The notes below the pieces were generated by a model that was not told the DNA's origin, searched no databases, and saw only the letters and a program-made list of their open reading frames with translations. DNA of 21,804 nt from Boothiomyces macroporosus (lineage: Eukaryota; Chytridiomycota; Chytridiomycetes; Rhizophydiales; Terramycetaceae). The position numbers were made by a program, and so were the translations under genes. Below, piece by piece: positions 158 through 21,377 of this stretch (positions are counted from its first letter, which is position 1; each line of letters opens with the position of its first letter). Location: the NCBI GenBank assembly GCA_027604185.1, contig JADGKB010000169.1:1-21804 (forward strand). Direction: 5' to 3'.

Positions 158-1001
158 CTAGTCATCATTAGCCGTCCTCTTTGGGTTAGTTTGACTATTT
201 GCAGATTTCGTCTTCTTTGAGTTGGCTTGGTTGCGGATACTCTTTTTGGTGTCATCAACGATCATCAACAGAATATTTGCCTCGACAAAGTTGATCAAAG
301 AAAAAAAGAGCTTTAACCAAGGTACCAAGCTAGGAACACCACCTATAATCGCACCAACCAGTTCAATAACGATAATCGTCAACGTGAATATGCAGTTGTT
401 GACACTTAATCGAAGCCAGATGCCAGTGTCATTGAGGTTGGAACTATTCTTTTCCTTGGCAGAAGAGATTGCCTTTGCAATAAATGGATAAGCAAACAGC
501 ACATACAATAGACAACGGTTGCCCAAGCAAATATAGTTTGCAGGGATAAAGTTAGCGACAATGATACAGTACGGCATGATGAATGGAAGGTTGAAAGCAG
601 TTGCAGCAATGTAAAATTCACATACTCCAGAGATCAAGATTTGGAAGCAACAAAACGCAGTATAAATGTGCTGTACCTTTGTGTCAACAGAGAATTGTAG
701 AAAAGTACGCGCTCGGATAAGAAGTAGGCCATCTAGACAGCATATCCAGAGCGCTTGTTAATGTTTGCTTACCATACACAGTTATCCCAAAATTTCCTAA
801 TGCCACGCAGTTGATACCTGGGATAAGCAATTCTACTAGGAGAGTAAGAGCTCTGAGAGCGCAAAGGGAGATTTGCAGGAAAACAGCGATTGGACCTATT
901 CTAAAGTTTGTTATATCACGGACTAAATACCCTGCCTCAGCAACCAAGATTAACAACGTTGCGGTGACCACTGTAACATTTATTTGAGTAGCGCTATTCA
1001 T
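158..1001 (-). CDS. Seven-transmembrane protein, receptor-like (one 19-nt intron)
   Basis: The model joins 1001-773 and 753-158, giving 274 residues. Read straight through, the frame opened by the ATG at 999-1001 is lost. Removing 754-772 joins it (..GITVY/ALWICC..) to the long downstream frame ending in TAG at 158-160. The product is almost entirely hydrophobic, with about seven predicted helices and a short hydrophilic tail (roughly the last 35 residues) rich in Asn, Lys, Ser and Thr. That layout fits a GPCR-like plasma-membrane protein with a cytosolic C-terminus. I recognise no family motif such as DRY or NPxxY, so ligand and G-protein coupling are unknown. An AATAAA lies about 6 nt after the stop. 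The gene converges on the partial tubby-like gene; the stops are 86 bp apart. Confidence 0.75.
754..772 (-). other. Spliceosomal intron, 19 nt
   Basis: On the minus strand it reads GTAAGCAAACATTAACAAG: GTAAG donor, ATTAAC branch-like motif, AAG acceptor, phase 1. Removal restores one open frame through the 7TM gene. Confidence 0.85.
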
Positions 1002-1444
1002 ACTTTAGTTTTTGGAAGAATATTTCACGCGAATAGCATGCGTCATCTTTTCTGTTTACGTTACCAGGATGACAAAGTTGCTATTGCTCAATGGGCAAAT
1101 ATTATTTTAATGCCAAGGTAAACCAATCTCTTGAAAACGTTTTTGGCATCAATCATCACATGACGATAACAGTAGATAAACACTAGATTCCAAATGTTTA
1201 TGTGTAATTATAGAAATACAGAAAGTCTATTACAGACAGGTTTATGAGGATATAGCAAGTGCATGATAAGCGCGATCATTCCTTAGTGATATTTCGCCTT
1301 TGTAAAATTTGCCTAGTTAATTGTGTCATTTCAAACTCTATTTCTTTCATTTTTAAGCTACGTAAAAGCAAATACCCACTCAATTTGAATTAATGGATTG
1401 CATCTGTTTATGAAGGAGACTTGATTTTAATTGGATTTATTCTT
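1002..1444. other. Intergenic region without a recognised gene
   Basis: This 443-bp AT-rich stretch lies upstream of the 7TM gene start (1001, minus) and downstream of the tubby-like stop (1445, minus). It should hold the 7TM promoter and the tubby 3' end; an AATAAA on the minus strand lies about 7 nt beyond that stop. I see no long frame, tRNA-like element or strong hairpin. Confidence 0.6.
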
Positions 1445-2341: not shown

Positions 2342-2600
2342 TTCTATTATTTAGAATTTGAAAAACTTTGTACCAATTCAAATCCATAAAAGGAAGTGTG
2401 ACTAATAGGAGTGAAACAATGGAACTAGATCTAATGTGACACGATAACAAAGCACCACCTACTGGTAATTATACAACCTTCGTTACTAGGAACGACTCTA
2501 TATTTTCGTCAAGTTTAGGAGTGGAACTTGGATTTTACCATGAACTATATTCGCCATAGATATGCAGTCATATAACGTAATATTTCCAAATGAATTAAAT

Positions 2601-2606
2601 TTTATT
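2601..2606 (-). terminator. Poly(A) signal AATAAA overlapping a stop codon
   Basis: The minus strand reads CACTAATAAAA. The last two bases of the TAA stop (2605-2607) are the first two of AATAAA. Confidence 0.6.
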
Positions 2607-4350: not shown

Positions 4351-4376
4351 CATTATTTATAATTTCCATACTTGAT

Positions 4377-5216
4377 TTATAATTTTGATTTTATTCCAAA
4401 ATCGGATGGTTGGTTCAAGAGTCTCCCTTCCATTCCAGCATTCACATCCAGCGATACACCGGTTATGTTGCCAGATTTAGTAGAGTCTGCCAAGAATAGG
4501 ATAGCTTGAGCAATATCATTTGGTTCAGACACTTTTTTAAGTGGTGAGGAAGCAAGTGCTTGATACAGCAATGACGGATCCTTCATGGCTCGTTCCGCCA
4601 TTGGAGTACGAATCCATCCAGGAGATACGGTGTTAATCCTTGCTCGCGGATGAATCTTTACAACCTCGTTCTTTAACGATGAAATCAACCCGTACATCAT
4701 GGCAGTTTTTGAACAGGAATAGTCGGCATGATATGCTTCTCCAAACTTTCCTGCAGTAGATCCAATCAATACAATTGACGGCGCATCCATATCCATTGTA
4801 ATTTGTCTCAGAAAGTGCTTGATAAAGAGAAAGGCTCCGTCCAAATTAATAGCCAATGTGTTTCTCCATTGTTTATAATCCATATCCTTTACTAGTACAT
4901 CTGGATTAGTGAACTTTAACCTTTGGATGGCCAGATTCCGTGACAAACAATAAGCGACTCAATATTTCCCAATTGCTGCACCGCTTTTGAAACCAGTCCC
5001 GCTACTTGAGATTCATCAGTTACATCCGCTTTCAATAAACACACTCTTGACTGGTACTTTTCTTTTAGTGGTTGTAGACTAGTGCTGTTTGAGTTATATT
5101 GTAATGTTACATTGGCTCCGATTTCTAATTAACTATATGTTACTTAGGAATTCCAATGCAGTGATAATCCCAACTCCACCACTTGCGCCAGTGATCAATA
5201 CGTGCTTGCCTTTCAT
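4377..5216 (-). CDS. Short-chain dehydrogenase/reductase (SDR), two tiny introns
   Basis: Exons 5216-5144, 5124-4921 and 4900-4377 give 266 residues, the usual length of a classical SDR. A single-ORF reading would lose the N-terminal third, including the cofactor site. After splicing all SDR landmarks are in order: TGASGGVG dinucleotide-binding loop (residues 9-16), DVTD (58-61), CHG in place of the usual NAG (85-87), catalytic Asn111 (INLDG), Ser140 (IGSTAG), Tyr153 and Lys157 (YSCSK), and SPGWIRTPM after the active site. It is probably a cytosolic NAD(P)(H)-dependent oxidoreductase of the FabG/3-oxoacyl-reductase-like group; the substrate is unknown. The start was chosen because MKGKHVLITGAS begins exactly where SDRs begin. 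No canonical AATAAA follows the stop; one lies just inside the 3' coding end. Confidence 0.88.
4901..4920 (-). other. Spliceosomal intron, 20 nt
   Basis: Minus strand GTTAAAGTTCACTAATCCAG, phase 1, with an ACTAAT branch-like motif and CAG acceptor. It is the only one of the 14 introns not starting GTA. Removal joins ..HGIWPSK to DVLVKDMDYKQW in the SDR. Confidence 0.85.
5125..5143 (-). other. Spliceosomal intron, 19 nt
   Basis: Minus strand GTAACATATAGTTAATTAG, phase 1. Removal joins the Rossmann start (..TALEFL) to KIGANVTLQY, restoring the SDR N-terminus. Confidence 0.88.
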
Positions 5217-5532: not shown

Positions 5533-5537
5533 TTATT
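5532..5537 (-). terminator. Poly(A) signal AATAAA containing the stop codon
   Basis: The minus strand reads TTGGAATAAAGG; the TAA stop at 5533-5535 lies inside AATAAA. Confidence 0.65.
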
Positions 5538-6717
5538 CCAAGTTTGCTTTGAGCCAATTGACGCACTCCACATTTCCAGCCGATTCCGCTCTCTCAATCA
5601 CAAAATTATTCCACGGACATTTGTTTGCTTTCAGCCAAACAAGGTTTTCCAAGATTCCTTTTCCTGCTGCAGCACGAAAGGTACCATGATCCCAAGGACA
5701 TCCATTCTCTTTGAGCCATTTCATAATTTCCAAGTTTCCATATTCTGCTGCTGCTCTGAATGTTTGTGGATCAAATGGACAGTTGATTTTCTTTAAAAAC
5801 TTCATTACTTTAAAGCTTCCAAGACCTGCAGCTTCAATGAATGCGCCAGAGTCAAATGGGCAATTATTATCCACTAGCCATTGGAGGTTGTCTACATTCC
5901 CGTTCCTAGCAGCAAATCTGAATGTATATTCATCAAAAGAACAATTATGCTCTTTCAGCCATTTCATATTTTCAAGGCTGCCTATTCCTGCTGCTTCACA
6001 GACTACACCGCTATCCCAGGGACAGTTATTTTCCTTTAACCATTTCATATTTTCGAGATTTCCATTCTTGGATGCAAGTCTAAATGCAACTGCTCCCCAA
6101 GGGCAGTTATTCGCTTTAAGCCATTTCATATTTTCCAAATTTCCATTTGCTGCAGCTTCCTGAAAAGTACGTTCGTTCCAAGGGCAACCATTTTCTTTAA
6201 GCCATTTCATGGTCTGTAGATTTCCCGTTTTTGCTGCCTGAGCAAATGTAGACTCATCTACAGGAATTCCATTTTCCTGGAGCCATTTCAATATCTTCAG
6301 GTCACCCTTTTCGGCTGCAAAACTGGATGTGGTTTTACGTCTTGCCCCATCCTCATAAGGACAGCCTGCTTCTTTGAGCCATTTCAGATTTGCAAGATTT
6401 CCGTTAATAATTGCTTGCTGAAATGCAGATACGGTCCATGGACAGTCATTGGCTTTTAACCATTTCATAATTTCCAAATTTCCTACTCTAGCAGCGCAAC
6501 TGAATTTGAATGGACTCATGGGGCTATGCTTTAAAACCCATTTGATATTATCCAGATTGCCCTTTTCGAGGGCTTCCATTCCAAAATACCGTGTTGTTCT
6601 CTGAACGAAAGTGCTTTGGAGTCGTCTATTGTTTTGCAGTGTTTCTCTATCGCAAAACAGCCAAATCCTATCCATTATTTCTATTGGTAAACGGTATTCG
6701 TCATTCTGCGGGTTCAT
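5533..6717 (-). CDS. Ankyrin-like protein built of 27-residue repeats
   Basis: A 394-residue frame from the ATG at 6715-6717. The frame is open upstream to 6861 but without an ATG, so an additional 5' exon is possible. Residues about 7-30 (YRLPIEIMDRIWLFCDRE) resemble a short F-box-like helix. Then follow twelve full repeats and a half repeat of the form G-N-L-E-N-M-K-W-L-K-x-N-x-C-P-W-x-x-x-x-F-x-x-A-A-x-x, regular at 27 residues (81 bp); the third has a 5-residue insertion. These short CPW-type ankyrin-like repeats are familiar from chytrids, oomycetes, amoebae and giant viruses. They probably form a solenoid for protein binding; with the F-box-like start, a substrate adaptor for ubiquitination is a reasonable guess, not a demonstrated role. 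Confidence 0.85.
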   Translation of the reverse strand: MNPQNDEYRLPIEIMDRIWLFCDRETLQNNRRLQSTFVQRTTRYFGMEALEKGNLDNIKWVLKHSPMSPFKFSCAARVGNLEIMKWLKANDCPWTVSAFQQAIINGNLANLKWLKEAGCPYEDGARRKTTSSFAAEKGDLKILKWLQENGIPVDESTFAQAAKTGNLQTMKWLKENGCPWNERTFQEAAANGNLENMKWLKANNCPWGAVAFRLASKNGNLENMKWLKENNCPWDSGVVCEAAGIGSLENMKWLKEHNCSFDEYTFRFAARNGNVDNLQWLVDNNCPFDSGAFIEAAGLGSFKVMKFLKKINCPFDPQTFRAAAEYGNLEIMKWLKENGCPWDHGTFRAAAGKGILENLVWLKANKCPWNNFVIERAESAGNVECVNWLKANLE

Positions 6718-7209
6718 TTCTTGGTTTCGGATTTGTGTTAAAATTCGGAAAAGTGGTGAAGTACACACTAGTGACGCAAAATCTTTTTGGTTCTCGCATT
6801 GGATACTACGGAACAGATCCAATCCCCAGAGCCTGAACAGTCTCTGATATCTCACTGTCAACTAACAGCGTGTGGTCCCAATTTTTAACAACATAGGGTA
6901 GCATGAATCGTAATAAAGCACTGTGGTCTAAACTATGTACACTAATGACAACTTTATTCCAGAAGAAGAATTGAAAGGTAATCAATGCTCTTTGCAACAG
7001 CTTGATACAAGTAGTCAATTAAACCTGCGAGAGACCCAACCACAGAATGCCCAATTTGATGAACTATGGCCAACTGCAGCAAGTAGATTTTCATTGAATT
7101 CAACCAGCACAAGAAATCCACTACTATCCTGGAGTACTTTGCTTTTACGGATAATCAACAGTTTTTCATAATTTGTGACAACAGATTGATTTAAATACTG
7201 GTATATTGA
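6718..7209. other. Unresolved stretch with overlapping open frames, possible decayed or multi-exon gene
   Basis: 492 bp lie between the ankyrin gene start and the small membrane-protein gene. On the minus strand several short frames are open in succession. One contains SSGFLVLVEFNENLLAAVGH (around 7060-7120), another HQIGHSVVGSLAGLIDYL (around 6990-7060), a third HSALLRFMLPYVVKNWDHTL (around 6860-6930). The last could be joined in frame to the ankyrin gene by removing 22 nt (GT at about 6811 to AG at about 6790), giving it a longer N-terminus, but the branch motif there is weak. No plus-strand reading is convincing. I can neither assemble one gene nor recognise a product. Confidence 0.35.
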
Positions 7210-7771: not shown

Positions 7772-9475
7772 ATGTCCAAACGAGTTGCAATTATAGGAGC
7801 TGGCCCTTCTGGGTTATGCGCAATCAAGCAGTGTCTCGAAGAAGGATTAGTTCCTGTTTGCTTTGAAGCTTCACCAGGGATAGGAGGTTTGTGGCAGTCA
7901 TCAACAGAAGACTCAAACTCTTCAGTCTATCAATCTACAGTAGTAAATACTTCAAAACAAATGATGTCTTATTCGGATTTCCCAATTCCAGACGACTGGC
8001 CAAATTTCTTGCCTCATACAATGGTCCATGATTATTTGGAAATGTATGCCCACAATTTCAAGCTGGGGCCATACATTAAATTCAATAGAAGAGTGCAGTC
8101 GGTTAAACCAGTAATCAAGGATGGAGTAGAAACGGGAAGCTGGGAAATTATATATAAAAAAAGAGAAAGAAGAGGAAGACCTGGCAGACCTACTTCACCA
8201 GATAGCAGACCAATGTCTCCCGAAGCTAGAATGGTTTCTCCAACCAGAAACGGCGAATCTTCAAATTCCATTGACACTCTTGGAATTCAATTTCCGTTGC
8301 GCAAATCTGAAGACAGTGGATATTCTGATGATTCAATCGAATTAAAAAAGAAATCAAATTTGAAAAAGGATGTGTTTGATTTTGTTTTGATTTGTACAGG
8401 ACATCACTGGTCTCCTAAAATGCCAGAGTTTGAGGGAATGAAAGATTTCAAGGGACCAATGATTCACTCTAGCGCTTACAAAGTGTAATTGATATTTAAT
8501 AATAGTCCTTATCCATTCAAGGATGAAAGAGTGTTAATTGTGGGAGTTGGGAATTCTGGAATTGATATCTCTTCAGAATTAGCCAGCCATGCGTCTTCTG
8601 TATTGTTGAGCTCTAGATCTGGAACGTGGATCGCTCCAAGAGTTACATTGTTTGGACTTCCTACTGATCAACTGTCCACCAGAGCTGCAAATTCGTTACC
8701 AAGACCATTGTTGAACTTTGCTTTAGAAAGCTTGATGACTTTGCATCACGGTGACTTGGAAAAGTACAAATTAAAACCAAAGCATGGATTTTTAGAGCAA
8801 ACACCGGTTGTTGGATCTCAAGTCTTGGAGCATATTGAAACTGGAAAGATCGCTGTTCGTCCAAATGTAAAGAAATTCACTGCAAATACTGTTGAATTTG
8901 CTGATGGAACCAAAGATGAAATTGATGCAGTTATACTCTGCACTGGTTATCTTATTGAAAATCCATTCCTTGATCCTTCAATTATGGGTCAACAAGATTC
9001 CAGTAGCAACATTGTGAAGCTTTACAAACATATCTTTCCAACCAACGCCAAGAACCTTGCATTTATTGGAATGGTTCAGCCTATTGGCTCTATCCTGCCA
9101 GTTGCTGAAATGCAAGCCAGATGGGCTACCAGAGTATTTTCTGGAAAGTGCCAATTACCTCCATTGAAACAGATGCGGGATGAAACAGATATGGATTGGA
9201 TTGAACATTTAAAGACTTTTGTGCCAAGAGAAAGAATGACCATTGCTGTAAACACTGTACCGTACATGGATATGATTGCACAGAAAATTGGGGTTTTGCC
9301 AGATTTGTGGAAATTATGGAAAACCAATTGGTCGCTGGCTGCCAATGTGACTTTTGGCCCAACAATTAGCAGTCATTACCGTCTAACTGGACCTGGAAGC
9401 TGCCCTGAAGTAGCAGAGAAAATCATCAGCAACGCTTGCGTCGGTCTAGATTTAAGAAAGCATATCAAAAAGTAA
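7772..9475 (+). CDS. Flavin-containing monooxygenase (class B FMO), 21-nt intron
   Basis: Exons 7772-8484 and 8506-9475 give 560 residues. It carries every class B FMO landmark in order: FAD-binding GxGxxG (IIGAGPSGLCA, residues 7-17), the FMO fingerprint FKGPMIHSSAY (226-236), NADPH-binding GxGxxG (VGVGNSGIDIS), and the C-terminal ATG-type motif LCTGY. Similarity extends to animal FMOs (for example ..LVGPGQW.. corresponds to LTGPGSCPEV). It oxygenates soft nucleophiles (N- or S-containing compounds) using NADPH and O2. There is no C-terminal membrane helix, so it is probably cytosolic. Residues about 130-199 are an extra Ser/Pro/Arg-rich, probably disordered loop absent from typical FMOs. 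An in-frame TAA in the intron makes unspliced reading look like two genes. Neighbours suggest no pathway link. Confidence 0.93.
8485..8505 (+). other. Spliceosomal intron, 21 nt
   Basis: GTAATT donor and TTTAATAATAG branch/acceptor region, phase 2. The length is a multiple of three, but it contains an in-frame TAA at 8486-8488. Removal gives ..HSSAYKV/PYPFKDERVLIVG.., as expected in an FMO. Confidence 0.92.
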
Positions 9476-9530
9476 CCGCATATTTTTGTTCTCTAAATAT
9501 ATAATTTTTGTCCATTAATTTTCCAATCTA

Positions 9531-10344
9531 ATGTTCACGTTTCTCTTGCTTGGAATGCTGAATGCCGACATTTACAGGGATATTTATGCACAGCAGCACC
9601 GCATATCGATCCAGACTACACCCATAGCGGATCCAGACTTGACGCTACCCTTCAAAGGCACCTATGTGAACTGCAAGACTACTGTACTTATACCCGACCC
9701 ACTACCGCCAATAGACAAAGAGGAATCTCTACGATTCGCAATTAATGTTATCGACGGAATGACTGAATGTTTGGAATACAACAATGGCGACTTTGTTTAC
9801 TCGATTTGTCCAAAAAAGAACGTTATTCAGCGGTTTTCCACTGATTTGAAAGAATCTGAAGATTTAACCGAACTTGAATGGAAAATAATCCAGAAAATCA
9901 GATATAAACTGGGTGTCTTTTCTGTCATTCCTCCTACCAATGTTCCCTATTTCAACCTAGATAAACCAGCAGGATCGTATTTGAGCACAGGATTAGACGG
10001 AACATTTAGGCTAAAACAGTTGTGGGGATCTGGGGATTACTGCGAAGAAATAACGCAAAAGCGACAGATTATTATCACTGTACTTTATTTTAATCTAGTA
10101 TTCTTGCGGTATAGAGACAAAGATAATGTCTGTGAATGAATATTCAGTGTGCCTGTATACCATGCACATAAAGTCGCCGCTTTTGTGTGATATTGATGGT
10201 TTCACTCCAAGAGAATACAAGAATAGAGGGGATATAGAGTGCTTTGTCGATAAAGCACTGCTGGAGAACTTGGACCCAGCTGAAAGGAAGAGGTGGAGGA
10301 TGGAAGATCAAGAAGTAAAGGAAAACTTTGTATTATTTAGCTAA
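9531..10344 (+). CDS. OS-9/YOS9-like ER lectin (MRH domain), 19-nt intron
   Basis: Exons 9531-10079 and 10099-10344 give 264 residues. An N-terminal hydrophobic run (MFTFLLLGMLNA) serves as a signal peptide. The next part (IYRDIYAQQHRISIQ, then FKGTYVNC) follows the layout of OS-9/Yos9. The mannose-6-phosphate-receptor-homology domain spans about residues 75-215. It has CLEYNNGDFVYSICP, NVIQRF, GSGDYCEEITQKRQ and, only after splicing, ITYSCG..VNEYSVCLYTMHIKSPLLC. The conserved cysteines and the glycan-binding Gln, Arg, Glu and Tyr are all present. Family members recognise trimmed mannose glycans on misfolded ER proteins for ERAD. The tandem Trp of OS-9 is absent and there is no HDEL-type retention signal. 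A more distant MRH protein is the main alternative. Confidence 0.82.
10080..10098 (+). other. Spliceosomal intron, 19 nt
   Basis: GTACTTTATTTTAATCTAG, phase 0, with TTTAAT branch-like motif and TAG acceptor. Removal reconnects the two halves of the MRH domain (..KRQIIIT/YSCGIETK..). Confidence 0.92.
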
Positions 10345-10830: not shown

Positions 10831-11841
10831 ATGTCTACACCAGCTGTCAACCAAACCAACGTAGAAATAAACAAGTTGTACAATCAGCCATGGAAGCAAT
10901 GCACTTTGCTGATAGTAATGATGGTACAACTACTGACATTGGTTGTACTTTGTTTAGCGTTATTCAACAGGACATATACCCCATTCAAAAGCAAACAGCT
11001 TCCATTCTTAGGTGTCGGATACTTTGCAGGACTGTGCTTTACTCTATCCAACTTGCAAATCTTTGAAATCGTGGACCAGGTTGGGATATTTGCTGACTGT
11101 ACACTTTGGTTCTTGTGGATGCAAGTGGTCTTTGGTGGCTCGTTGATCTTAATTATCATGTCTGCCCGAATGCTCCGGTTGTATTTCCTGATTGTATTGG
11201 CTAAACCCGCTCAAGGCATCAAGTTTTGGAGTCCTTTAGCATTAATGTACTTGCCTTCTTGGGCATTGGCTCTATTAGCAACTGTTTTTCCAAACAAGTA
11301 TGAAGCTAGCGCACCCGAAGTTACCACCGCAACTATCGATGGCGTTCCTGGTTGTACTGTTCAACTGAATCAGTTATGGTTTCTGTATGCGCTATATGGC
11401 GTGGTATTGTTCCAGCTATGTTTTGTATGGGTATTGACCATTCTGGTCTCCAGAGTGAGAATGGGCTTTAATGAATTCAAAGAAAATGTAACGATAAATA
11501 CAATTGCCACAGTATCACTATTTGCATCATACGGACTGGTAATCACAGCGATATCATTCCACAATTGGGGCAAAATTGTACTACTTTTCCTAAGTGTGTT
11601 ATTCGCAACCATCTCTACAATCGGCCCGTTGTTTAAAGTTACTATAGGATTGTAATTAGCTACTAACAATAGTTTGAAAAACAAAGAAGAATACTTGGTA
11701 AAGTGGAAAAGAGGATTGCGCGATGAACGTTTGCCTACAGGACTCAACTATTCAGTTGGCGAAACTACTTCATCTGGAAACGGGCATGGAAGCATGATCA
11801 TGTCCAGCTATCGCTCTAGTACACAAAAATCTTACATGTGA
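10831..11841 (+). CDS. Tandem seven-transmembrane receptor-like protein, copy 1 (21-nt intron)
   Basis: Exons 10831-11651 and 11673-11841 give 329 residues from the ATG MSTPAVNQTN. Seven hydrophobic segments run between about residues 28 and 270. Characteristic shared blocks with copy 2 are YTPFKSKQLP, LWFLWMQVVFG, ARMLRLYFLIVLAKPA, IDGVPGC, LWFLYALYG and VSRVRMGFNEFKENV. The extracellular-type loop cysteine in DGVPGC is conserved. Splicing replaces a stop with a 57-residue cytosolic tail beginning FLKNKEEYLVKWKRG, rich in Ser and Thr at its end, which also aligns with the tails of copies 2 and 3. It is probably a plasma-membrane receptor or sensor; I do not recognise a named GPCR family. An AATAAA lies about 10 nt past the stop. 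Confidence 0.85.
11652..11672 (+). other. Spliceosomal intron, 21 nt
   Basis: GTAATTAGC donor side, then CTACTAACAATAG carrying the textbook branch site CTAAC; phase 2. It starts one base before an in-frame TAA. Removal gives ..TIGF/LKNKEEYLVKW. The position is identical in copies 2 and 3. Confidence 0.93.
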
Positions 11842-12002
11842 GTATTAATAAATTTTAATCTATCTTGTGAAAAGCTGGTTTATGAATATCAAATTACTGA
11901 TTTGCGTTGGTAGTCCAGATTTGGTACTCAATTGGTACCCGAAACTTTGTACTACCCACCCTCCTAATCAGGATGTAATAATCTGGAGACGCAAGTTACC
12001 CA

Positions 12003-13003
12003 ATGACTATCAGCATTGCTCTAAATTCAACCAATGTAGAAATAAACTCTCTAAGAAACCAAATATGGAAACAAATCACTTTGGGAGGAGTAATTGGTCT
12101 AATGGGTTATGCATTAATTGTGCTGCTAATAGCACTTTTGAATAACAAGTACCTGCCATTCAAAAGCAGGCAGATTCCCTACTTGGTGCTGGCGTATATT
12201 TCGGCAGTCTGCACTGTTATTGCAAACCTCCAGATATTCTACATTTTCGATCAGACAGGCATATTTTCAATCTGTATATTATGGTTCCTTTGGATGCAGT
12301 TAGTGTTTGGGGTATCGTTGACATTGATGGTATTGGCATTTAGGATGCAAAGGTTGTATTTCATAATTGTACTATCAAAACCAGCAAGGGGTTGGAGATT
12401 TTGGATTCCGCTAGGAACTGCGTATGCGCCAATAGTCTTGCTCTCTTTACTTTCTACAATATTTCCTGGGAGATACGAGAGTGTTTATCCATTCGTTCCA
12501 CCTGATAGTACAGATGGCATTCCAGGTTGCGCAGTTTTAGACTCTCAAATATGGTTTCTGTATGCGCTCTATCTTGTTGTAATGGTACAAGTAGGCTATG
12601 TGTGGACACTGACATTTCTCGTTTCTCGAGTTAGGAAAGGATTCAACGAATTTCAGGAAAATATCATTATCAATTCAATCGCTACCTTCACACTATTCGT
12701 GTCTTATGGACTAGTAATTACAAAGCTTTCTTACAATCCATATGGCAAAGCAATTCTGGTATTCTTGTCCACCATATTCTCGATTGTTGCTTCCATTGGA
12801 CCTTTGGTAAAGCCAACGATTGGATTGTAATAGTTTTTAACCATAGCTTAAGAAACAAGGATGATTATTTGATTAATTGGAAACTATCCATCATTTCAGA
12901 GCACCTACCGACTGGGTTGGATTACAGATCGACAACATTAAACTCCAATGTGAATGTGTTTAGTCACACTTCCAGTCGGAAGTCTGCTGGTACTTATCAA
13001 TAA
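12003..13003 (+). CDS. Tandem seven-transmembrane receptor-like protein, copy 2 (20-nt intron)
   Basis: Exons 12003-12826 and 12847-13003 give 326 residues, starting MTISIALNSTNVEINSLRNQ, collinear with copy 1. Shared blocks: LPFKSRQIP, LWFLWMQLVFG, RMQRLYFIIVLSKPARG, TDGIPGC, IWFLYALYL, VSRVRKGFNEFQENI and the tail FLRNKDDYLINWKL..LPTGLDY. Seven hydrophobic helices and a cytosolic Ser/Thr/Asn-rich tail are predicted. The intron sits at the same codon and phase as in copy 1. The two genes are 161 bp apart, head to tail, a recent-looking but already diverged duplication. Function beyond membrane receptor or sensor is unknown. Confidence 0.85.
12827..12846 (+). other. Spliceosomal intron, 20 nt
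   Basis: GTAATAGTTTTTAACCATAG, phase 2, TTTAAC branch-like motif. Removal gives ..TIGF/LRNKDDYLINW, homologous to copy 1. Confidence 0.93.
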
Positions 13004-13004
13004 A
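12999..13004 (+). terminator. Poly(A) signal AATAAA containing the stop codon
   Basis: TATCAATAAACTTG: the TAA stop at 13001-13003 lies inside AATAAA. Confidence 0.65.
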
Positions 13005-13357
13005 CTTGTACTTAATGAATCCTGGCCCTATCATTTATATTTACAACTGAAAAACCACCTGGTTCAATTTGCTCAAAATTCAGATCAAACTGATTCTGAT
13101 TATCAAACCAATAATCTATTATATATTAAAATTATCGTGATAGCAGTAAATACAATGGGCTTTGTAACAGCATCCGTTGGTTATCTAATCATGCCACTGA
13201 TAGGAATGTACGCTTAGATATTTACTATAGGATAGTGAACAAAGATGAGTATGCCATGAATTGGAAATCTGAAATAATTTCGGAACAGCTACCCAAAGAG
13301 CTGAATTACAATTCAGAGAATCTAAATGCTGTCAATGTATTCAACTTGCAGATCTAA
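13004..13357 (+). pseudogene. 3' relic of a third tandem 7TM gene
   Basis: Immediately after copy 2 a frame without its own clear start encodes a last helix (YIKIIVIAVNTMGFVTASVG, then YLIMPLIGM). Removing 23 nt (13208-13230) continues it as IVNKDEYAMNWKSEIISEQL and PKELNYNSENLNAVNVFN to a TAA at 13355-13357. That matches the tail of copy 2 (NKDDYLINWKLSIISEHL). Upstream of the last helix the similarity stops; the first six helices are missing. This looks like the surviving 3' end of a third duplicate. Alternatively it could serve as an alternative 3' end for copy 2, but there is no evidence of this. An AATAAA occurs about 11 nt after its stop. Confidence 0.65.
13208..13230 (+). other. Relic intron, 23 nt
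   Basis: GTACGC donor side and ATATTTACTATAG acceptor side, phase 2, in the same codon position as the introns of copies 1 and 2. It is the longest of the set and has a weaker branch-like motif, consistent with relaxed constraint. Confidence 0.75.
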
Positions 13358-13403
13358 CTGTATCCAAATAAACCTATTGAAATCCATTTGATCTTTCCTT
13401 TAG

Positions 13404-14874: not shown

Positions 14875-14880
14875 TTTATT
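14875..14880 (-). terminator. Poly(A) signal AATAAA overlapping a TGA stop
   Basis: The minus strand reads AACTGAATAAACG: the A of the TGA stop (14880-14882) is the first base of AATAAA. Confidence 0.6.
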
Positions 14881-15617
14881 CAGTTGCTTCTTTTTGGATG
14901 TACCAATAGATTTAGTTGTCCAACTTCATTCCACTCTGGATACTTCTGCTTCAAGTTGACAACATTCATTTCTGGCCATGTAATGTAAATTTTATCAATC
15001 AAAGTATCGTAAAAGAACTTGTTTCCTTTTGTATTAAAGTGAACTCCATCATAGTAATGATCCCAGATCTTGTCAAGATTACTGCCATCACCCAGTAATG
15101 CGTGCCAAGTATCTAAACAAGGAATACTCAAATCATGAGCAACTTGCATAGCGGCATCTTTGTACCTCCTTGTTCTTTCTAATGTCCGCTCTGGATGCTG
15201 GTTCGCAGGTGGTGGAGTGACAAGCAGTACTTGGCCTCTTTGCAATGCTTTACCGCATATTTCAGTCAAATTGGCCTTGTAAGCTTCCACATCAACAGCT
15301 TGAAGTGAATTAACTGAAGGATGAACTGAATCATTTGTCCCCAACATAATAATTGTTAGTACAATCCTGGAGTCTCCCAATTCACAGTAGTCCAGAAATC
15401 CATCCATTAAAGGCTCAACCCACCCTGTATTATACCCAGATAAGCCTTTGTTTACAATTTCCAATTTCCGGATGTAGTGGTGCTGAAGAGATGCTGCCCA
15501 GCCAAGCATTGATGGATCTGAACCACATTGAGTAATAGAATCGCCAATAAGCAGGATCTTGTTCATCTTTAGGCTAATCAGTTTGCTGTCAATTTTTATG
15601 TCTTGGTTTTCAGTCAT
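14880..15617 (-). CDS. IAH1: GDSL/SGNH esterase, isoamyl-acetate-hydrolase type (copy 1)
   Basis: From the ATG at 15615-15617 the protein has 245 residues. A second ATG at 15566 (MNKILLIGDSITQ) aligns exactly with the start of the neighbouring paralogue and is an equally good start (228 residues). SGNH blocks are present: GDSIT with the nucleophile Ser, a Gly in KGLSGYNT, GTND with the oxyanion Asn, and DGVHF with catalytic Asp and His. The motif TPPPANQHPERT before the C-terminal block is typical of the Iah1 family. The family hydrolyses short-chain acetate and other esters in the cytosol; no signal peptide is seen. It lies head-to-tail after its paralogue with only 39 bp to that gene's stop codon. 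Confidence 0.88.
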   Translation of the reverse strand: MTENQDIKIDSKLISLKMNKILLIGDSITQCGSDPSMLGWAASLQHHYIRKLEIVNKGLSGYNTGWVEPLMDGFLDYCELGDSRIVLTIIMLGTNDSVHPSVNSLQAVDVEAYKANLTEICGKALQRGQVLLVTPPPANQHPERTLERTRRYKDAAMQVAHDLSIPCLDTWHALLGDGSNLDKIWDHYYDGVHFNTKGNKFFYDTLIDKIYITWPEMNVVNLKQKYPEWNEVGQLNLLVHPKRSN

Positions 15618-15655
15618 GTTACTGAACAAACACAAAATAGGAAATGCATCACTGA

Positions 15656-15661
15656 TTTATT
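15656..15661 (-). terminator. Poly(A) signal AATAAA containing the stop codon
   Basis: The minus strand reads ACCAATAAATC: the TAA stop at 15657-15659 lies inside AATAAA. Confidence 0.65.
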
Positions 15662-16382
15662 GGTATAGTGAGTTGGGGATATCTTTGGGATTTACTGCAT
15701 CCCAAAGCGCTAATGGGGGAACAAGGGCTTCAGTGTTTAGTTCTGGCCAGTTAGTTGTAATTTCTTGAACAAGGGCCTTGTAGAAGGTTTGGTTGCCTTC
15801 GATATCAAAATGCAGCCCATCAAAAAAGAGCTTGTCCATCTTCAATTGATTGAATTCCCCTGATGGCCCTAGAAAGGCTTTCCATACATCCAACACGGGA
15901 ACTTTTAACTCTTGCCCCAATTCAAGAACAGTGTTCCGGTATCTAATTGTCCCTTCCATCGTACGATCCAATCTTCTATTGACTCCAGAAGCGGCCCACC
16001 TTGGCCCGTCAATTGGAGGAGGGGTAACAAGAAGTAATCGGCTACGTGGAATGATCTTTGAGGCAATCTCATTTAGGTTTTGCTTGAAACGTTCCAATTC
16101 GATTCCTTGATGAGAGTTCATTTCAATGTTTGCAGCGTCATTAGCACCAAGAAATACCACGCTTAATTCAATCTTGGAGCCATCTTTTTCGCAGCAGTCC
16201 AAGATATCTGAAATCAAGTGCTTGCTCCACTCAGTGTTGTACCCTGAATGCCCCCGATTGACGATATCGAGCTTGCGACTGTAGTAATATTGAAGTGCTG
16301 CTGCCCATCCTTGCATTGAAGGGTCGGCACCGAACTGGGTAATTGAATCTCCAAACAATAATACTTTGTTCAAATTTCTCAT
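15657..16382 (-). CDS. IAH1: GDSL/SGNH esterase, isoamyl-acetate-hydrolase type (copy 2)
   Basis: A 241-residue intronless frame from the ATG at 16380-16382. It starts MRNLNKVLLFGDSITQFG with the nucleophilic Ser at residue 13, a Gly in RGHSGYNT (block II), GAND (79-82, block III, Ala in place of the usual Thr) and DGLHF (Asp188, His191, block V). The insertion IDGPRWAAS..NRRLDRTMEG between blocks III and V is typical of fungal Iah1. It is a tandem paralogue of the downstream copy with about half the residues shared by eye. The active-site block begins at residue 11, so the start cannot lie much further in. The divergent RCC1-like gene starts only 9 bp away. Confidence 0.9.
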   Translation of the reverse strand: MRNLNKVLLFGDSITQFGADPSMQGWAAALQYYYSRKLDIVNRGHSGYNTEWSKHLISDILDCCEKDGSKIELSVVFLGANDAANIEMNSHQGIELERFKQNLNEIASKIIPRSRLLLVTPPPIDGPRWAASGVNRRLDRTMEGTIRYRNTVLELGQELKVPVLDVWKAFLGPSGEFNQLKMDKLFFDGLHFDIEGNQTFYKALVQEITTNWPELNTEALVPPLALWDAVNPKDIPNSLYQ

Positions 16383-16391
16383 TTTGATTGA
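16383..16391. promoter_or_regulatory. 9-bp gap between divergent start codons
   Basis: The esterase ATG ends at 16382 (minus) and the RCC1-like ATG begins at 16392 (plus). Only TTTGATTGA separates them, so promoters and 5' leaders of both genes must lie inside each other's coding sequence. Confidence 0.7.
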
Positions 16392-17709
16392 ATGTCGAAA
16401 TTTAAAATCTGTACAAGTAGGATTTCAGCCTGTGTAAATATCGGATTAAAACAATCGGTAATTAAACGATGCTATTCGGTTTACGGATGGGGAAACGGAT
16501 TAAGTGCTCAACTGGGATTCGGCCAAACCATTGAAGTAGCAACCAAGCCTTTGGACTTGCCTAATTTTGAAGACCTTGCAATTAAACAATTACAGTCAGG
16601 AGTCAAACACTCTGTGGCATTAGTGCAAGAAGAAGGAAAGGGAAGGCTGTATACATGGGGATCAAATGATTATTGTCAATCTGGATATTTCTCTGAACTC
16701 GAAACTGGAGTTGGGTTGTTTGATTCGGAAGAGAAACTCATCGAAGAACCAATGCAGTTAAGAGACGGTGCTGAAGCAGAAAACTTTAAGCAGATTGCTA
16801 TCGGCGATTTCCACAATCTAGCACTAACAGATGAAGGAAAGGTCTTTGCTTGGGGCGGTGGAATATTGGGATATGGAACTGAATTATTTGAAATTCAGAT
16901 GTTTCCCGTAAAGAAATTGCTGGATTATAAGGTGGAATCTGTTTACGCAACTGGGAACACCTCATTAGCTGTCGTAGATAACAATGGATTAAAAGAAATC
17001 ATGATGTGGGGATACTTGGATACCACTGCCAAAGGAGATGTTAGCAAAGCATTGGAACCAGTAAAGTTGCTTGCTGGGGACAAAGCATTCCAATTCCAGC
17101 AAATTACTAGCGTAGCATTGAATCAGCACAACTTGGCTATCAGTGGAATAAATTTAGAAGGAAAGGATGAAGTCCAAGTATTCGGATCATTGAATAACAT
17201 AACCCCAGGATACATCCCTTACTGCCCTGAGTTCCAAGCTGATGCCCCTTTGTTGTCAGAATCGGTTGCACTTCCCAGCTTATTATCAAAGAATACAGCT
17301 GCCAAACAGGTTCAGCTATGTGATGATTTCCTGCTCATATTGAATGGTATTTGCTATTAATCCAGATGATGGTAAAGTTACCCTTCACTCAATCCTCGAG
17401 CCATCCCAAGAACCGATTGAATTTGCGAATATCTCTGGTATTAACTCACCAATTAGGTCAATGTACGTTCGAAAAAACTCTGCAATATTTGCAACTCCAA
17501 CAGAAGTCTTAACGTACAGCGCAATTCCTCCAGTAAAGAAAGAAAAAGGCTCAATATTGTCCATCTTCTTTACAACAAAAGAAGAGAAAGAGATAAATCC
17601 TAGGCCTTTGATTGATACAATCCTAACTATGCCCCCAAATGTCCAGTATATCAACGAGCCAATGATTGTATCCTGCGGATGGGACTTTTTCATTGTTGCA
17701 ACAAAATAA
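16392..17709 (+). CDS. Mitochondrial RCC1-repeat protein (RCC1L/Fmp25-like), 19-nt intron
   Basis: Exons 16392-17346 and 17366-17709 give 432 residues. The first 27 residues are basic and hydroxylated without acids (MSKFKICTSRISACVNIG..KRCY), a good mitochondrial presequence. RCC1-type blades follow: VYGWGNGLSAQLGFGQ, HSVALVQEEGKGRLYTWGSN, HNLALTDEGKVFAWGGG, LKEIMMWGYLD, EVQVFGS and, across the splice, FLLILN/DDGKVTLHS. The last blade ends ..VSCGWDFFIVATK. It forms a seven-bladed propeller. Human RCC1L and yeast Fmp25 act in mitochondrial ribosome or respiratory complex biogenesis, so that is the likely role. It lies 9 bp from the divergent esterase and converges on IFT56 with 70 bp between stops. 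Confidence 0.82.
17347..17365 (+). other. Spliceosomal intron, 19 nt
   Basis: GTATTTGCTATTAATCCAG, phase 1, ATTAAT branch-like motif. Removal shifts the frame by one and joins LLILN to DDGKVTLHS, completing an RCC1 blade. Confidence 0.9.
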
Positions 17710-17710: not shown

Positions 17711-17779
17711 TTACAAAAATAAAGCGAAATTCAATTATTTGTATTAAATAGCTATTCTATTTTCCTTCATGTACTAATA

Positions 17780-19526
17780 TCAACTAGTAATTACATTTTT
17801 CATCACCCTTATAATGTACTCAACTTGTGGATTGGAACTGTTTCTTAACAAACTGATTATTTCGCGAATGTGCTCTTTAGGTTGGTCTGTCAAGCATTGT
17901 TTAAAAGCGCCAACACATGCTCCCCTCTTACCTTCCCAATACTCTGGATTTGGATCAAGTCTTTCCAAGACATCAAAGGCTTTGGCGGAATAAAAGTACT
18001 GTTCAGTCTACATTAGAAAGAGCTACTTTGTAACAGTCGTTTGCAATCAGCTGCACCAAGCTAAAAGATTCACTGGATGTTTCCATCTTCAGGTAGAGTT
18101 CCCATGCAAGCCTTGGCTTTTTGTTCATGATATCTACATCAATATTTGTTTACAGCACCGGCATAAATGGCTTAGATAGGCATACTCGCATTTATACTTT
18201 TCATTTTGGATCATTAGCAGCAATTCTTCTCCTTCTTCAAAAGCTCCGGTGGCTATTTTCGCTTGGGCATAGTTGTAATTGAAGGTGTCGTCATTGTAGA
18301 AATATCCTTTGATTGAATTCAAGTAAATCAAAACATCGTCAAATTGTTTGAGCAAAAAGAAACAAGATGCCATACATTGTCTACCGGGAATTGTGTCGCA
18401 TTCGCTTGCAGAGCCGCCAACGAGTTGAAAGTATTGTTGGGCAATCTTCAAATGCTCTCTCGATTCTTGCTCTTGCCCTAATGCAGCGTTTACTATTCCC
18501 TTTAGTATATATTCCTGTGGAGTAGCAGGTTCGACGTCCTTCATCAAATTAAATGCTGATACAATGTCATCTTTTTTAAGATGGTAAATGACTAAATTCA
18601 ATCTTGCTTCAGGAATGACATCCAACAATGATGGGAACACTTGCAGAGCACCTTCTCCGTTTCTAAAGACAACCTGGATAAATAAATTACATACCATATT
18701 ATGTTTCATCAAATCTTCTGCGAACTTTAGGTTATGTGAAGTCTTTTCTGACAATACCTTTAGTTCTTGTTCTGCAGCTTTGCCGTTATAGAGTCTAAAG
18801 TGGTTGCACGCTTTCAAATTGATTCCTGTAACGCTATCAGGGTAATGTTGCAAATACACTGAAAGAACTTCCTGTGACACATCATAGTAATCCAGTTTGT
18901 AGTAGCACATGGCAACGTACACATTGATTGCGAGAAAATCTCTATTCTCCAGTAAAATTCTCTTGTAAATATCGATTGCTTCTTGGTAATGACTTCTCAA
19001 GTAATGAATCGAGGCTAAACTCAACTGGTCTTCAATAATATCTTGTAAATTTTGGTGATATCCCATCAATCTCTTTTCATCGTTGAATTTATGCGATAAA
19101 TGGAATAGCAATCTGTTTTGCAGTTTACAGGTTGGCCCTTTTTGGGCAGCATCATCTGCTTCCTTGTACATTCCAAGAAAAAAGTAACAACAGGCTAAAT
19201 ACAGGTGGATTACTTGATCGCATTTTGGGTCATTTAGCAAGGCTTGATATGTCTACTTTAAACGATGCTTACTTCCATGGCTTTCCTGTAATCCCCAAGA
19301 TGAAATTGCGCATATGCATACCATAGTATATTCTCCAATGTGTTTTCTCCGCATGCTTTGTTGAACTAGATTAAGTGTTTGATACTTCAAGGAGAGTAAT
19401 TGCCCCCATATAGTCGCGGTTGGCTATGAATGCTTCCAAAGTTGGAATCTTTTTCTTTTCCATTGCAGTGTCATTCCCTGTTGGCTGTGGGTTAGGAGCC
19501 ACAGCTGGTTTTGCTCTTGATAACAT
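17780..19526 (-). CDS. IFT56: Intraflagellar transport protein IFT56 (TTC26/DYF-13), four introns of 19-20 nt
   Basis: Exons 19526-19386, 19365-19273, 19252-18154, 18133-18027 and 18007-17780 give 555 residues, essentially the length of human TTC26. It starts MLSRAKPAV as in animals. Family signatures run in order: [159 protein letters not shown] and [19 protein letters not shown]. These are tetratricopeptide repeats. IFT56 is an IFT-B subunit that carries motility proteins into the flagellum. Without splicing the first 78 residues and the last quarter are lost. The gene shows that the organism makes flagellated cells. Confidence 0.96.
18008..18026 (-). other. Spliceosomal intron, 19 nt (IFT56 intron 4)
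   Basis: Minus strand GTAGCTCTTTCTAATGTAG, phase 0, CTAAT branch-like motif. Removal joins ANDCYK to [19 protein letters not shown]. Confidence 0.93.
18134..18153 (-). other. Spliceosomal intron, 20 nt (IFT56 intron 3)
   Basis: Minus strand GTAAACAAATATTGATGTAG, phase 1, TTGAT branch-like motif. Removal joins LSHLCRC to [18 protein letters not shown]. Confidence 0.93.
19253..19272 (-). other. Spliceosomal intron, 20 nt (IFT56 intron 2)
   Basis: Minus strand GTAAGCATCGTTTAAAGTAG, phase 0. Removal joins GDYRKAME to [13 protein letters not shown]. Confidence 0.93.
19366..19385 (-). other. Spliceosomal intron, 20 nt (IFT56 intron 1)
   Basis: Minus strand GTATCAAACACTTAATCTAG, phase 0, CTTAAT branch-like motif. 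Removal joins GAITLLE to [19 protein letters not shown]. Confidence 0.93.
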
Positions 19527-19836
19527 CTTTATTAAAATACTGTTACCATCTTGTTTAACGCGAGTAAACTTTCAGATTCGCGTAAAAGAAGATTTAAACA
19601 AAAGGGAATAGCTTCTCAGACCTCAAGAACACAGTTTCGGTTCTGTTGGACGCTGCAATTTGATAACTATGGAAATCTATTTTCGCCAGCTATAATAGAA
19701 TTTTACTTGTCCGATTATTTAATATAGTTTCGCCTGTATTTATCTATATAGGCGATTGGATTTTAATTTACTTACTATCCATTGTCCATTGTGATAGTAA
19801 CAACAAATTAAATATTTTTCTGAAAAGAGTGGATTG
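19527..19836. other. Divergent promoter region between IFT56 and an unknown gene
   Basis: 310 bp with no gene. It holds a hairpin (CGCCTGTAT at 19731-19739 with ATATAGGCG at 19746-19754, one mismatch, 6-nt loop). TTTCGCC is repeated at 19681 and 19728. I looked for an RFX/X-box typical of ciliary genes and found no full match. Confidence 0.5.
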
Positions 19837-20508
19837 ATGGTCCAATCGAAATATTTTAAAAGAAACCGGCCAGACTCTTCAAAGCAATTTCCAGTCCTTC
19901 CAAAGTGTCCACAGCCATACGAGTATCTGCGGGCACCAAAAGAAAAACCAAGCTCACCACTATCAATACCATTAATACCCCAGCCAATAATCAACAAACC
20001 GTCAAGGATTAGGACTCATTTTGAAACGGTTCCGTTTCCCCAAATTGTCAAAACAGCAGTGGAGAGTAACGATCACGCTTTGCATGTAATGAAACAGAAT
20101 TCCAACAAAAGAAGAGATTCGTTTCCCAAAATTGGACATGCCAAAGTCAGAGAAGGTGAATTGCATCATATCTTACATCCTGAATATAAACATACCCCGC
20201 TTTGGACTGACCGTGGCAGATTGGTGATTCCACAGGCTAGTGTTCTGCAGAAACCAATATCCTTAAACGATTACAATAACCTAGTGCTTTCCAACAAATT
20301 GCCAGAGATTCCAACACCTGTATTTACCAGGAATTGTTCTGAAACCTCGATATCAAGCTATGAAGATAGCATGTGCACGTACTTTCAACACGTCCGGCAA
20401 CCAGATTTTTCAGATTTTGATGAAAGGTTAATGATTCAAAATCCATGTACCATTTATATGCAAAAGAAACGTGAGAGACAAGGCAGGTCCAACAGTTTTA
20501 TTGAATAA
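19837..20508 (+). CDS. Unknown basic, Pro/Ser-rich protein
   Basis: A 223-residue intronless frame from the ATG at 19837 (MVQSKYFKRNRPDSSKQ; the TTG just before it is not used). It is hydrophilic, basic and proline-rich in its first third (KCPQPYEYLRAPKEKPSSPL, then SIPLIPQPIINKPSRIRTHF), without signal peptide, membrane helix or recognised domain. Most of it is probably disordered; the block REGELHHILHPEYKHTPLW is the most structured-looking part. It diverges from IFT56, which makes a flagellar or zoospore role a guess worth keeping in mind, but nothing in the protein shows it. Its stop codon overlaps the convergent LRR gene by 11 bp. AATAAA begins inside its stop. Confidence 0.65.
   Translation: MVQSKYFKRNRPDSSKQFPVLPKCPQPYEYLRAPKEKPSSPLSIPLIPQPIINKPSRIRTHFETVPFPQIVKTAVESNDHALHVMKQNSNKRRDSFPKIGHAKVREGELHHILHPEYKHTPLWTDRGRLVIPQASVLQKPISLNDYNNLVLSNKLPEIPTPVFTRNCSETSISSYEDSMCTYFQHVRQPDFSDFDERLMIQNPCTIYMQKKRERQGRSNSFIE
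20497..20502 (-). terminator. Poly(A) signal AATAAA containing the LRR gene stop codon
   Basis: The minus strand reads ATTCAATAAAACTG: the TAA stop at 20498-20500 lies inside AATAAA, within the coding end of the opposite gene. Confidence 0.65.
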
Positions 20509-21377
20509 TAAAGAATGCAGTGACAAATAACAGTTTTAATGCCAGATTAGAGTTTCTCACAGCATTGCTAAGTGGTCCAGCGGGAGTGCTTGATGGAGTA
20601 GTTTGGGGTGCGTTTTGGGTAACTGGGACTTGGGTAACAACAACTTGCGAGTATACTGGTGGTGGAATATTTACAGGATCCATAGTTTGAACTGGAGGAG
20701 GCATTGGAGGATCAGTTGTTTCTGGCATCATCGTGACAGGTGGGAAGACGATAGGATTCTCAGTAATTACAGGCGGTATGATAGGAATATCTTGAGTTAT
20801 AACAGGTGGGATTACTACTTTTGGTGGTGGAGGTGGGATTACTACTTTTGGTGGTGGAGGTGGAGTTACTACCTTTGGAGGCGGAGGTGGTGAATTTACA
20901 ACAGCTGGCTTATTTCCAGAATCAACAAGAAGTTGCTTTAAATTGGATAGACTTGCGACGGAGCTTGGAATAGATCCTGTCAATTTGTTGTTTTTTAGGT
21001 TTAGCATTTGGAGGTTCTGCAGGTTACTCCATTGGGTTGGGACATTTCCAGTAAATCCATTATTCGATAAATTAATACTTTGGCAGCTTTTCAGGTTTCC
21101 AAGTTCAGGTGGAAGTTTGCCATTTAGCCCATTTCCAGACAAATCTATGGAATTGAGTTTAGTTAGTTTGCTAATCGAGGCTGGTAAACTTCCGACGATT
21201 AATGGGTTGTCTGTAATTGACCTTTAGTTAAATAATTGCTTACACATGGAGGATATTCTTGTTTGAATCACATGTCACGAAGCTGTTTGTACAGCATTCA
21301 AGTAAATCCGAGGTAACGGATTCATCAGTCATCGATGGTATAACTTCATTCAACCATACATTGCAATCCACAGACAT
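20498..21377 (-). CDS. Plant-style LRR and proline-rich surface protein, probable GPI anchor (22-nt intron)
   Basis: Exons 21377-21244 and 21221-20498 give 285 residues. The N-terminal 45 residues (DCNVWLNEVIPSM..DLLECCTNSFVTCDSN) look like an LRR N-terminal cysteine cap. Four to five leucine-rich repeats of the plant-specific type follow (IDLSGNGLNGKLPPELGNLK, INLSNNGFTGNVPTQWSNLQ, LNLKNNKLTGSIPSSVASLS). Then comes a stalk rich in Pro/Thr/Val with three PPPPPKVV repeats. The protein ends in a hydrophobic segment (LALKLLFVTAFFIIQ) without a cytosolic tail, as in GPI precursors. It is probably a wall or surface adhesion or recognition protein. No signal peptide is encoded ahead of the cysteine cap, so an upstream exon may be missed. 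The start was chosen as the first ATG. Confidence 0.78.
20507..20512 (+). terminator. Poly(A) signal AATAAA overlapping a stop codon
   Basis: GAATAATAAAG: the last two bases of the TAA stop (20506-20508) begin AATAAA. It lies inside the 3' coding end of the opposite gene. Confidence 0.6.
20805..20885. repeat. Three 27-bp tandem repeats encoding the proline stalk
   Basis: Units at 20805-20831, 20832-20858 (identical) and 20859-20885 (diverged) begin ggtgggattactac. In frame with the minus-strand LRR gene, they encode Pro-Pro-Pro-Pro-Pro-Lys-Val-Val-Ile/Thr. Confidence 0.88.
21222..21243 (-). other. Spliceosomal intron, 22 nt
   Basis: The minus strand starts GTAAGCAATT and ends ATTTAACTAAAG, phase 2, with a TTTAAC branch-like motif and AAG acceptor. 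Removal joins NKNILHV to SITDNPLIVGSLPAS, linking cysteine cap and first LRR. Confidence 0.85.

Follow-up and report, generated by a model that had tools for sequence, protein, structure and literature searches.

Nearly uniform introns of about 20 nucleotides predicted across the genome of a chytrid fungus

How short can the introns of a fungus become, and does extreme shortness demand a changed spliceosome? These questions are raised by a contig of 21,804 nucleotides (nt; JADGKB010000169.1, hereafter the window) from Boothiomyces macroporosus, a flagellated fungus (chytrid, order Rhizophydiales). Ten loci of the window are interrupted by stops or frameshifts, and the original prediction held that 14 GT-AG segments, once removed, would mend them all, that such a tight 20-nt mode extends genome-wide, and that such a mode would imply an adapted spliceosome. 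All 14 segments were located in the ten loci, each starting with GT and ending with AG; five measure 19 nt, five 20 nt, two 21 nt and one each 22 and 23 nt. The segments are almost certainly ordinary U2-type spliceosomal introns that, judging from the sequence, would have shrunk to near the physical minimum throughout the genome.

Removal of the segments leaves an open frame with a terminating stop in 10 of 10 loci, although the stop in IFT56 proved to be a false one. For protein families, nine unspliced pieces were compared in Pfam with the spliced products of five of the ten loci. At the MRH locus no family is found before splicing, and PRKCSH_1 is matched afterwards at 28.5 bits (residues 177–216), across the joint. 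In the SDR gene, adh_short_C2 rises from 90.6 bits, in the downstream fragment, to 141.5 bits (residues 10–249), and the two FMO-like pieces of the flavin monooxygenase (186.2 and 243.8 bits) become one protein of 448.6 bits. The gain is slight for the RCC1-like gene, where the PF25390 match rises from 96.9 to 102.4 bits, both below the cut-off of 150, and its end moves from residue 268 to 324; splicing brings no real gain at the LRR locus (LRR_1, 41.2 to 41.4). Homology is continuous over the joints of six introns in IFT56, of 24-, 22- and 21-nt introns in SF1 (compared with the solved SF1 chain 7vpx_D) and of a 22-nt intron in oxidosqualene cyclase. GT-AG ends and in-frame joining of exons, as expected of U2-type introns, were found together.

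IFT56 is the most instructive case. Its best match is the protein of Boothiomyces sp. JEL0838, and with six introns removed 544 of 547 aligned residues are identical. Comparison with this protein and with PDB chain 8bd7_E revealed two introns beyond the four listed originally, at 18674–18694 and 17774–17794, the first of which escapes a frame test because it is stop-free and a multiple of three long. The original list was thus a lower bound, and the window total after homolog comparison is 16 introns. By eye, six gaps in the IFT56 alignment fall at the 20-nt intron 18134–18153, where the JEL0838 model is shorter than four other relatives; the public model lacks residues near this point, as if its gene finder had picked a longer intron. 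The public IFT56 and Isy1 models of JEL0838 already remove most of these introns, and the fact is therefore already implicit in public data.

The length distribution was examined beyond the window in the source genome, a draft assembly of 15.2 Mb in 216 contigs, of which the window is one. Seventeen other contigs contributed 20 pieces of 10 kb, each taken from the first 20 kb of its contig; with the window, the sample amounts to 221,804 bases from 18 contigs. A hidden-Markov gene finder learned first from long reading frames and afterwards from the predictions it had made itself. Its first run required only GT...AG, with a flat prior on intron length, and 13 other dinucleotide pairs served as controls; the coding model was retrained on its own GT-AG predictions, which biases it somewhat toward GT-AG over the control pairs. 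In this run, 36 of 93 GT-AG introns measured 18–24 nt, compared with 1–9 for each control pair, whereas at 39–100 nt there were 11 GT-AG introns and 22–43 per control pair. A second run, with a splice-site matrix learned from the 18–24-nt set and length still flat, gave 130 introns: 21, 46, 20 and 5 at 19, 20, 21 and 22 nt, none at 23–30 nt, nine at 31–100 nt, 27 at 101–300 nt and two below 19 nt. The long introns of this run, at about 0.13 per nucleotide, correspond to a flat background. Of 18 introns called at loci kept out of the training, 14 measured 19–24 nt, one being counted twice where two loci (L032 and L033) overlap. The gene finder has low recall and produces artefacts: it called 5 of the 16 window introns singly, its calls at 4901–5143 and 19253–19385 are two fused pairs of short introns, and its long window introns at 2344–2538, 2545–2678, 9472–9577, 11819–12039 and 18008–18197 were not accepted.

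A count that uses no gene model gives the same peak. Donor GTA[AT], branch motif YTAAY and an AG a few bases on occur together 129 times at 19–22 nt (32 per nt). Every other length bin between 14 and 200 nt holds 1.8–4.7 per nt, and no second mode appears up to 200 nt. With an altered donor, 11 matches remain at 19–22 nt and the peak is gone; with the branch motif altered to YATAY, 18 remain, slightly more than in neighbouring bins, and the peak is nearly gone. A control with GA as acceptor gave 49 and was not counted as clean; we think that a true AG followed by A reads as GA one base later. Searched genome-wide with lengths of 16–46 nt allowed, the strict pattern GTAA...TACTAAC..AG has 123 matches; 87 of the 100 listed lie at 18–23 nt, and some of the 13 longer ones have the same acceptor as a listed short one. 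Gene finder and motif counts thus agree with the predicted genome-wide 20-nt mode, with a peak at 19–22 nt and no mode at 60–100 nt. Very roughly, the genome is estimated to hold 12,000 such introns, a figure derived from 127 excess matrix matches in the sample and a sensitivity of 65 in 92; the sample covers only the beginnings of contigs, and the data from which the matrix was learned are those in which its matches were counted.

The anatomy of these introns was described from 92 examples, 90 of them distinct, with an A+T content in the segments of 71.6%. The donor is GTA(A), most introns having A at positions +3 (88 of 92) and +4 (62); the commonest forms are GTAAAT (10), GTAATC (8) and GTAATT (8). 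Acceptors are TAG (65), CAG (15) and AAG (12). A branch-like motif fits YTNAY in 79 of 92, and the branch A, placed by motif score and hence predicted, lies at offset 13–15 from the first intron base in 87 (position 14–16). Its distance to the end is 4–6 nt, likewise in 87, and is 5 or 6 nt in 85. A motif matching U2 GUAGUA is thus predicted near the acceptor, and its TACTAAC form peaks at 18–23 nt genome-wide. The lengths follow from these two spacings: 13 + 5 gives 19 nt, 13 + 6 or 14 + 5 gives 20, 14 + 6 gives 21 and 15 + 6 gives 22. An earlier AG occurs inside 27 of the 92 introns, yet only one has an AG between the predicted branch A and the acceptor; therefore, the 3' end appears to be chosen by the branch site rather than as the first AG past the donor.

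Nearly all introns thus keep to a single length give or take a few nucleotides, no more than about 22 nt, with a small tail at 23, 24, 46 and 51 nt; the original claim that all detectable introns are 19–23 nt was overstated. Nine gene-finder introns of 31–100 nt were inspected. Six contain an in-frame, stop-free alternative of 20–22 nt (one of them GC-AG, AAG/GCAAGT), two were judged by eye to be edge or fusion artefacts, and one looks real. The six alternatives have matrix scores of 3.7, 4.8, 7.2, 7.4, 9.4 and 9.8, the longer version scoring higher in four of the six. A homolog settles one of these cases: for an 85-nt call in oxidosqualene cyclase, comparison with human lanosterol synthase (PDB 1w6k) bears out the intron of 22 nt. 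The 51-nt intron of an aspartyl aminopeptidase gene looks real because solved homologs lack an insert there, and removal of a 46-nt intron from Isy1 gives a sequence in agreement with the protein of JEL0838. On contig C1 (L003–L004, within 1834–1901), a JmjC-like gene, named by eye, has a possible 20-nt GC-AG intron, AAG/GCAAGTTTATTCTAATTTAG.

Does the spliceosome differ? The changes foreseen in U1, SF1, U2AF and branch recognition have so far found no support. The U1 RNA scores 68.8 bits, slightly below the cut-off of 69.5, and has a canonical 5' end, ATACTTACCTG; U6 was found with its ACAGAGA box. Two diverged U2 genes (L024 and L025) are present, and the branch-recognition segment GTAGTA is canonical in both. 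SF1 is encoded and canonical-looking, as is the U2AF large subunit, U2AF65 (best match E = 1.1e-67), whose own gene has introns of 19, 20, 19 and 19 nt once a fusion with the upstream gene is discounted. Cwc25 starts with MGGGDLNLKKSWHP, so that MGGG is kept; loss of this glycine motif is therefore not needed for 20-nt introns. The Cwc25 region lies in an identical 3111-nt stretch on contigs C49 and C100, either a haplotype copy that the assembly left unresolved or a duplication of very recent date. Human cells require Smu1 and RED for short introns; RED_N had no match in the genome and none in any control genome either, which therefore does not establish its absence. U12 snRNA likewise had no match in this or the control genomes, which again does not establish absence. 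U12-type donors have the consensus RTATCCTT, which the commonest donors among the 92 introns do not fit. An Rfam scan returned no family in 131,804 bases, made up of the window and 11 of the 20 pieces sampled.

The sole candidate change is at the N-terminus of Isy1, so that the seven parts found (U1, U2, U6, SF1, U2AF65, Cwc25 and Isy1) look ordinary save for this segment. In an alignment of our own gene model with 15 proteins picked from 120 listed, 11 of 16 start with MARN, two are truncated there, Globomyces has MANNQKEK, and both Boothiomyces rows, one of them our model, have MAPKTLAQKQE. In a tree of the Isy1 core, the Boothiomyces branch measures 0.61, compared with 0.42 for Homolaphlyctis and 0.32 for Batrachochytrium (about 1.5–1.9 times as long); that of Globomyces measures 0.50. 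The start of the gene (L041, about 1467–1516) can be brought into frame by a 49-nt intron, by 20 + 20 nt around a 1-nt exon or by 17 + 20 nt around a 4-nt exon, the 1-nt-exon model giving, by eye, the best fit to the conserved RNEEK. A 22-nt intron at the exon-1 join, used in the Isy1 alignment, was dropped at a matrix score of -1.6. Because one row is our own model and this join is ambiguous, the N-terminal change is a lead only.

From these parts, splicing of such introns may be pictured as follows. U1 would pair with the donor, while SF1, U2AF and U2 would define the branch point, and the first AG a few bases past it would serve as the 3' splice site. Because U1 and U2 hardly fit together on a segment of about 14 nt, where their helices would almost touch, they would bind tightly or one after the other, and the donor would then be handed over to the ACAGAGA box of U6. 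The released lariat would have a ring of about 14–16 nt and a tail of 5–6 nt. The narrow lengths would arise where deletions press introns down to a hard floor, which is set by two spacings that are each fixed within 1–2 bases; a floor against intron shortening has also been proposed for mikrocytids (PMC10245619).

Several observations weigh against this reading. The strict pattern read backwards gives 96 matches against the 123 read forwards, and therefore the length peak alone, not the total, carries that argument. Matrix scores are weak for the introns at 754–772, 5125–5143 and 18134–18153 (Table 1). The G at donor +5, normally paired by U1, stands at background (16 of 92) though U1 is canonical. 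The 46- and 51-nt introns are evidently removed too, so shortness is no absolute requirement. Human spliceosomes need about 50 nt from donor to branch, compared with the predicted 14 or so here, and 35 nt abolished assembly in human extracts (PMC6692369); the hand-over at about 14 nt is therefore unproved.

Three other accounts of the segments have to be set against these points. The segments might be short inserts other than introns, for instance sequences eliminated from DNA as in ciliates or sites of ribosomal skipping. Some eliminated sequences are likewise short, AT-rich and uniform, as the segments are, and those of ciliates carry TA at both ends. The ends here are GT-AG rather than TA-TA, a branch-like motif stands at a near-fixed distance from the acceptor, U1, U2, U6, SF1 and U2AF65 are encoded, and the control dinucleotides show no comparable peak, all of which makes this account very improbable. 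Still less credible, to the point of being barely worth entertaining, is that errors of sequencing or assembly mimic the interruptions: the assembly is a draft, but errors would not be GT-AG, 19–22 nt long and equipped with a branch motif, and nearly all of the joins recur in the public model of JEL0838 IFT56. It is also improbable, if a little less so than either, that the tiny introns are merely the detectable part of a population whose second, normal class of 50–100 nt escapes the stop and frameshift test. The 46- and 51-nt introns and the preference of the matrix for the longer version in most ambiguous cases speak for such a class. However, GT-AG introns of 39–100 nt were fewer in the flat-length run than those of every control pair, donor, branch and acceptor motifs do not exceed controls at 23–200 nt with branch-to-acceptor gaps of either 1–4 or 5–25 nt, and of the nine candidates of 31–100 nt, six contain a short alternative, two look like artefacts and one is real by homology.

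A further alternative concerns the machinery: short introns may have required a changed branching step, with the Isy1 N-terminus, and perhaps more factors, altered for a tight lariat as proposed for Stentor. The Isy1 N-terminus of Stentor is reported as non-conserved (PMC9505925), and the Boothiomyces protein combines a start deviating from MARN with a long branch in the core tree. However, Cwc25, the other factor changed in Stentor, is kept here, the exon-1 join admits several gene models, and the Globomyces branch is also long. We consider this possibility unlikely, though far from negligible. Similarly doubtful is the fuller account in which a non-parasitic fungus with some ten thousand introns of 19–22 nt and an otherwise canonical spliceosome acquired them by an independent origin within fungi, the only visible protein adaptation being a convergent change at the N-terminus of Isy1, a segment that extends to the active site.

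Table 1. Short introns of the window, with strand, length and the gene each interrupts (aa, amino acids).
Position	Strand	Length (nt)	Sequence	Gene and observation
754..772	-	19	GTAAGCAAACATTAACAAG	Membrane-protein gene, ~158–1001; 274-aa frame with terminal stop once removed; matrix score 4.9 (weak)
4901..4920	-	20	GTTAAAGTTCACTAATCCAG	SDR gene, ~4377–5216; removal gives 266 aa, Pfam gain
5125..5143	-	19	GTAACATATAGTTAATTAG	Same SDR gene and protein; matrix score 5.4 (weak)
8485..8505	+	21	GTAATTGATATTTAATAATAG	Flavin monooxygenase gene, 7772–9475; joint SAYKVPYPFK; called by flat-length gene finder
10080..10098	+	19	GTACTTTATTTTAATCTAG	MRH / glucosidase II beta-like gene, ~9531–10344; PRKCSH_1 spans joint once spliced
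11652..11672	+	21	GTAATTAGCTACTAACAATAG	"7TM" paralogue 1; TACTAAC branch motif; called by flat-length gene finder
12827..12846	+	20	GTAATAGTTTTTAACCATAG	"7TM" paralogue 2; 1 nt off the length in paralogue 1, exons still in frame
13208..13230	+	23	GTACGCTTAGATATTTACTATAG	"7TM" paralogue 3, truncated
17347..17365	+	19	GTATTTGCTATTAATCCAG	RCC1-like gene, 16392–17709; removal gives 432 aa
17774..17794	-	21		IFT56; newly found; removal gives C-terminus RVMKNYMKENRIAI as in JEL0838
18008..18026	-	19		IFT56; homologs continuous over joint
18134..18153	-	20		IFT56; joint RCYIMN as in PDB 8bd7_E and four other relatives; matrix score 6.7 (weak)
18674..18694	-	21	GTATGTAATTTATTTATCCAG	IFT56; newly found; stop-free; its seven encoded residues lacking in 8bd7_E and JEL0838
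19253..19272	-	20		IFT56; homologs continuous over joint
19366..19385	-	20		IFT56; homologs continuous over joint
21222..21243	-	22	GTAAGCAATTATTTAACTAAAG	LRR gene; removal adds an in-frame N-terminal exon, 285 aa; called by matrix gene finder

Among the genes of Table 1, three "7TM"-like genes (the label of the original prediction) stand in tandem at 10834–13360, the third truncated, perhaps a pseudogene, with its 23-nt intron position kept. By eye, the three have intron position and phase in common, with lengths of 21, 20 and 23 nt, and the surrounding residues are G-F-L-[KR]-N-K in paralogues 1 and 2 and G-M-I-V-N-K in paralogue 3; unspliced, paralogue 1 has no Pfam match. Elsewhere in the window, also by eye, two adjacent uninterrupted frames at 14880–16424 resemble GDSL-type hydrolase paralogues, and a single frame at 5533–6861 encodes a 442-aa ankyrin-like repeat protein with long antisense open frames.

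The reading of the segments as minimal U2-type introns would offer a fungal system, open to comparison with the yeast spliceosomes that are so well studied, for asking what sets the minimum size of an intron. Strains of Boothiomyces are culturable saprotrophs, and it is for this reason, and because the spliceosomal parts found are nearly ordinary, that the system would be useful. Extreme shortening of introns would then no longer be tied to a parasitic life or to reduction of the spliceosome. In practice, genes of such genomes may be spliced wrongly by gene finders set for longer introns, as two public gene models of JEL0838 hint. In the titles and abstract openings of the open-licence literature, no report of such introns in a chytrid or another fungus was found; most subscription papers lie outside this scope, and the search is no proof. 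The available text of a reconstruction of fungal introns that includes two Chytridiomycota mentions no tiny introns (PMC8476143).

How do these introns compare with those already described? Some microsporidian introns go down to the low twenties of nucleotides. In microsporidia, which are fungi or their relatives, introns are relatively short but few, and the spliceosome is reduced (PMC10245619). Other fungal introns are likewise U2-type and GT-AG with a branch motif, although those of Cryptococcus, with a mean of 63 bp, are already counted as relatively short (PMC8476143). The ciliate Paramecium has ultrashort and very numerous introns, but of about 25 bp (PMC5014332). Mikrocytos mackini and Paramikrocytos resemble Boothiomyces in very narrow sizes and conserved intron sequences; however, their introns measure 16–17 nt, M. 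mackini has 224 of them, and these intracellular parasites have a strongly reduced spliceosome (PMC10245619). The nearest range of lengths, 18–21 nt, belongs to the chlorarachniophyte nucleomorph of Bigelowiella, a relict endosymbiont nucleus with more than 800 introns (PMC10245619), in contrast to the nuclear genome of a fungus with the rough count given above. Stentor coeruleus, a heterotrich ciliate, shows several parallels: thousands of mostly GT-AG, AU-rich introns (8806 annotated) of nearly a single length, a tail of 5 nt after the branch A (5–6 nt here), canonical pairing segments in U1 and U2, and U2AF subunits that are kept (PMC9505925). Unlike in Boothiomyces, with 19–22 nt and a predicted branch A at position 14–16, Stentor introns measure 15–16 nt with the branch A at position 10–11, and the lariat ring of 10–11 nt is thus shorter than the 14–16 nt predicted here (PMC9505925). 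The glycine motif of the Cwc25 plug, kept in Boothiomyces, is reported as lost in Stentor, and its introns have no strong branch consensus, in contrast to the YTNAY motif found in most of the chytrid introns (PMC9505925).

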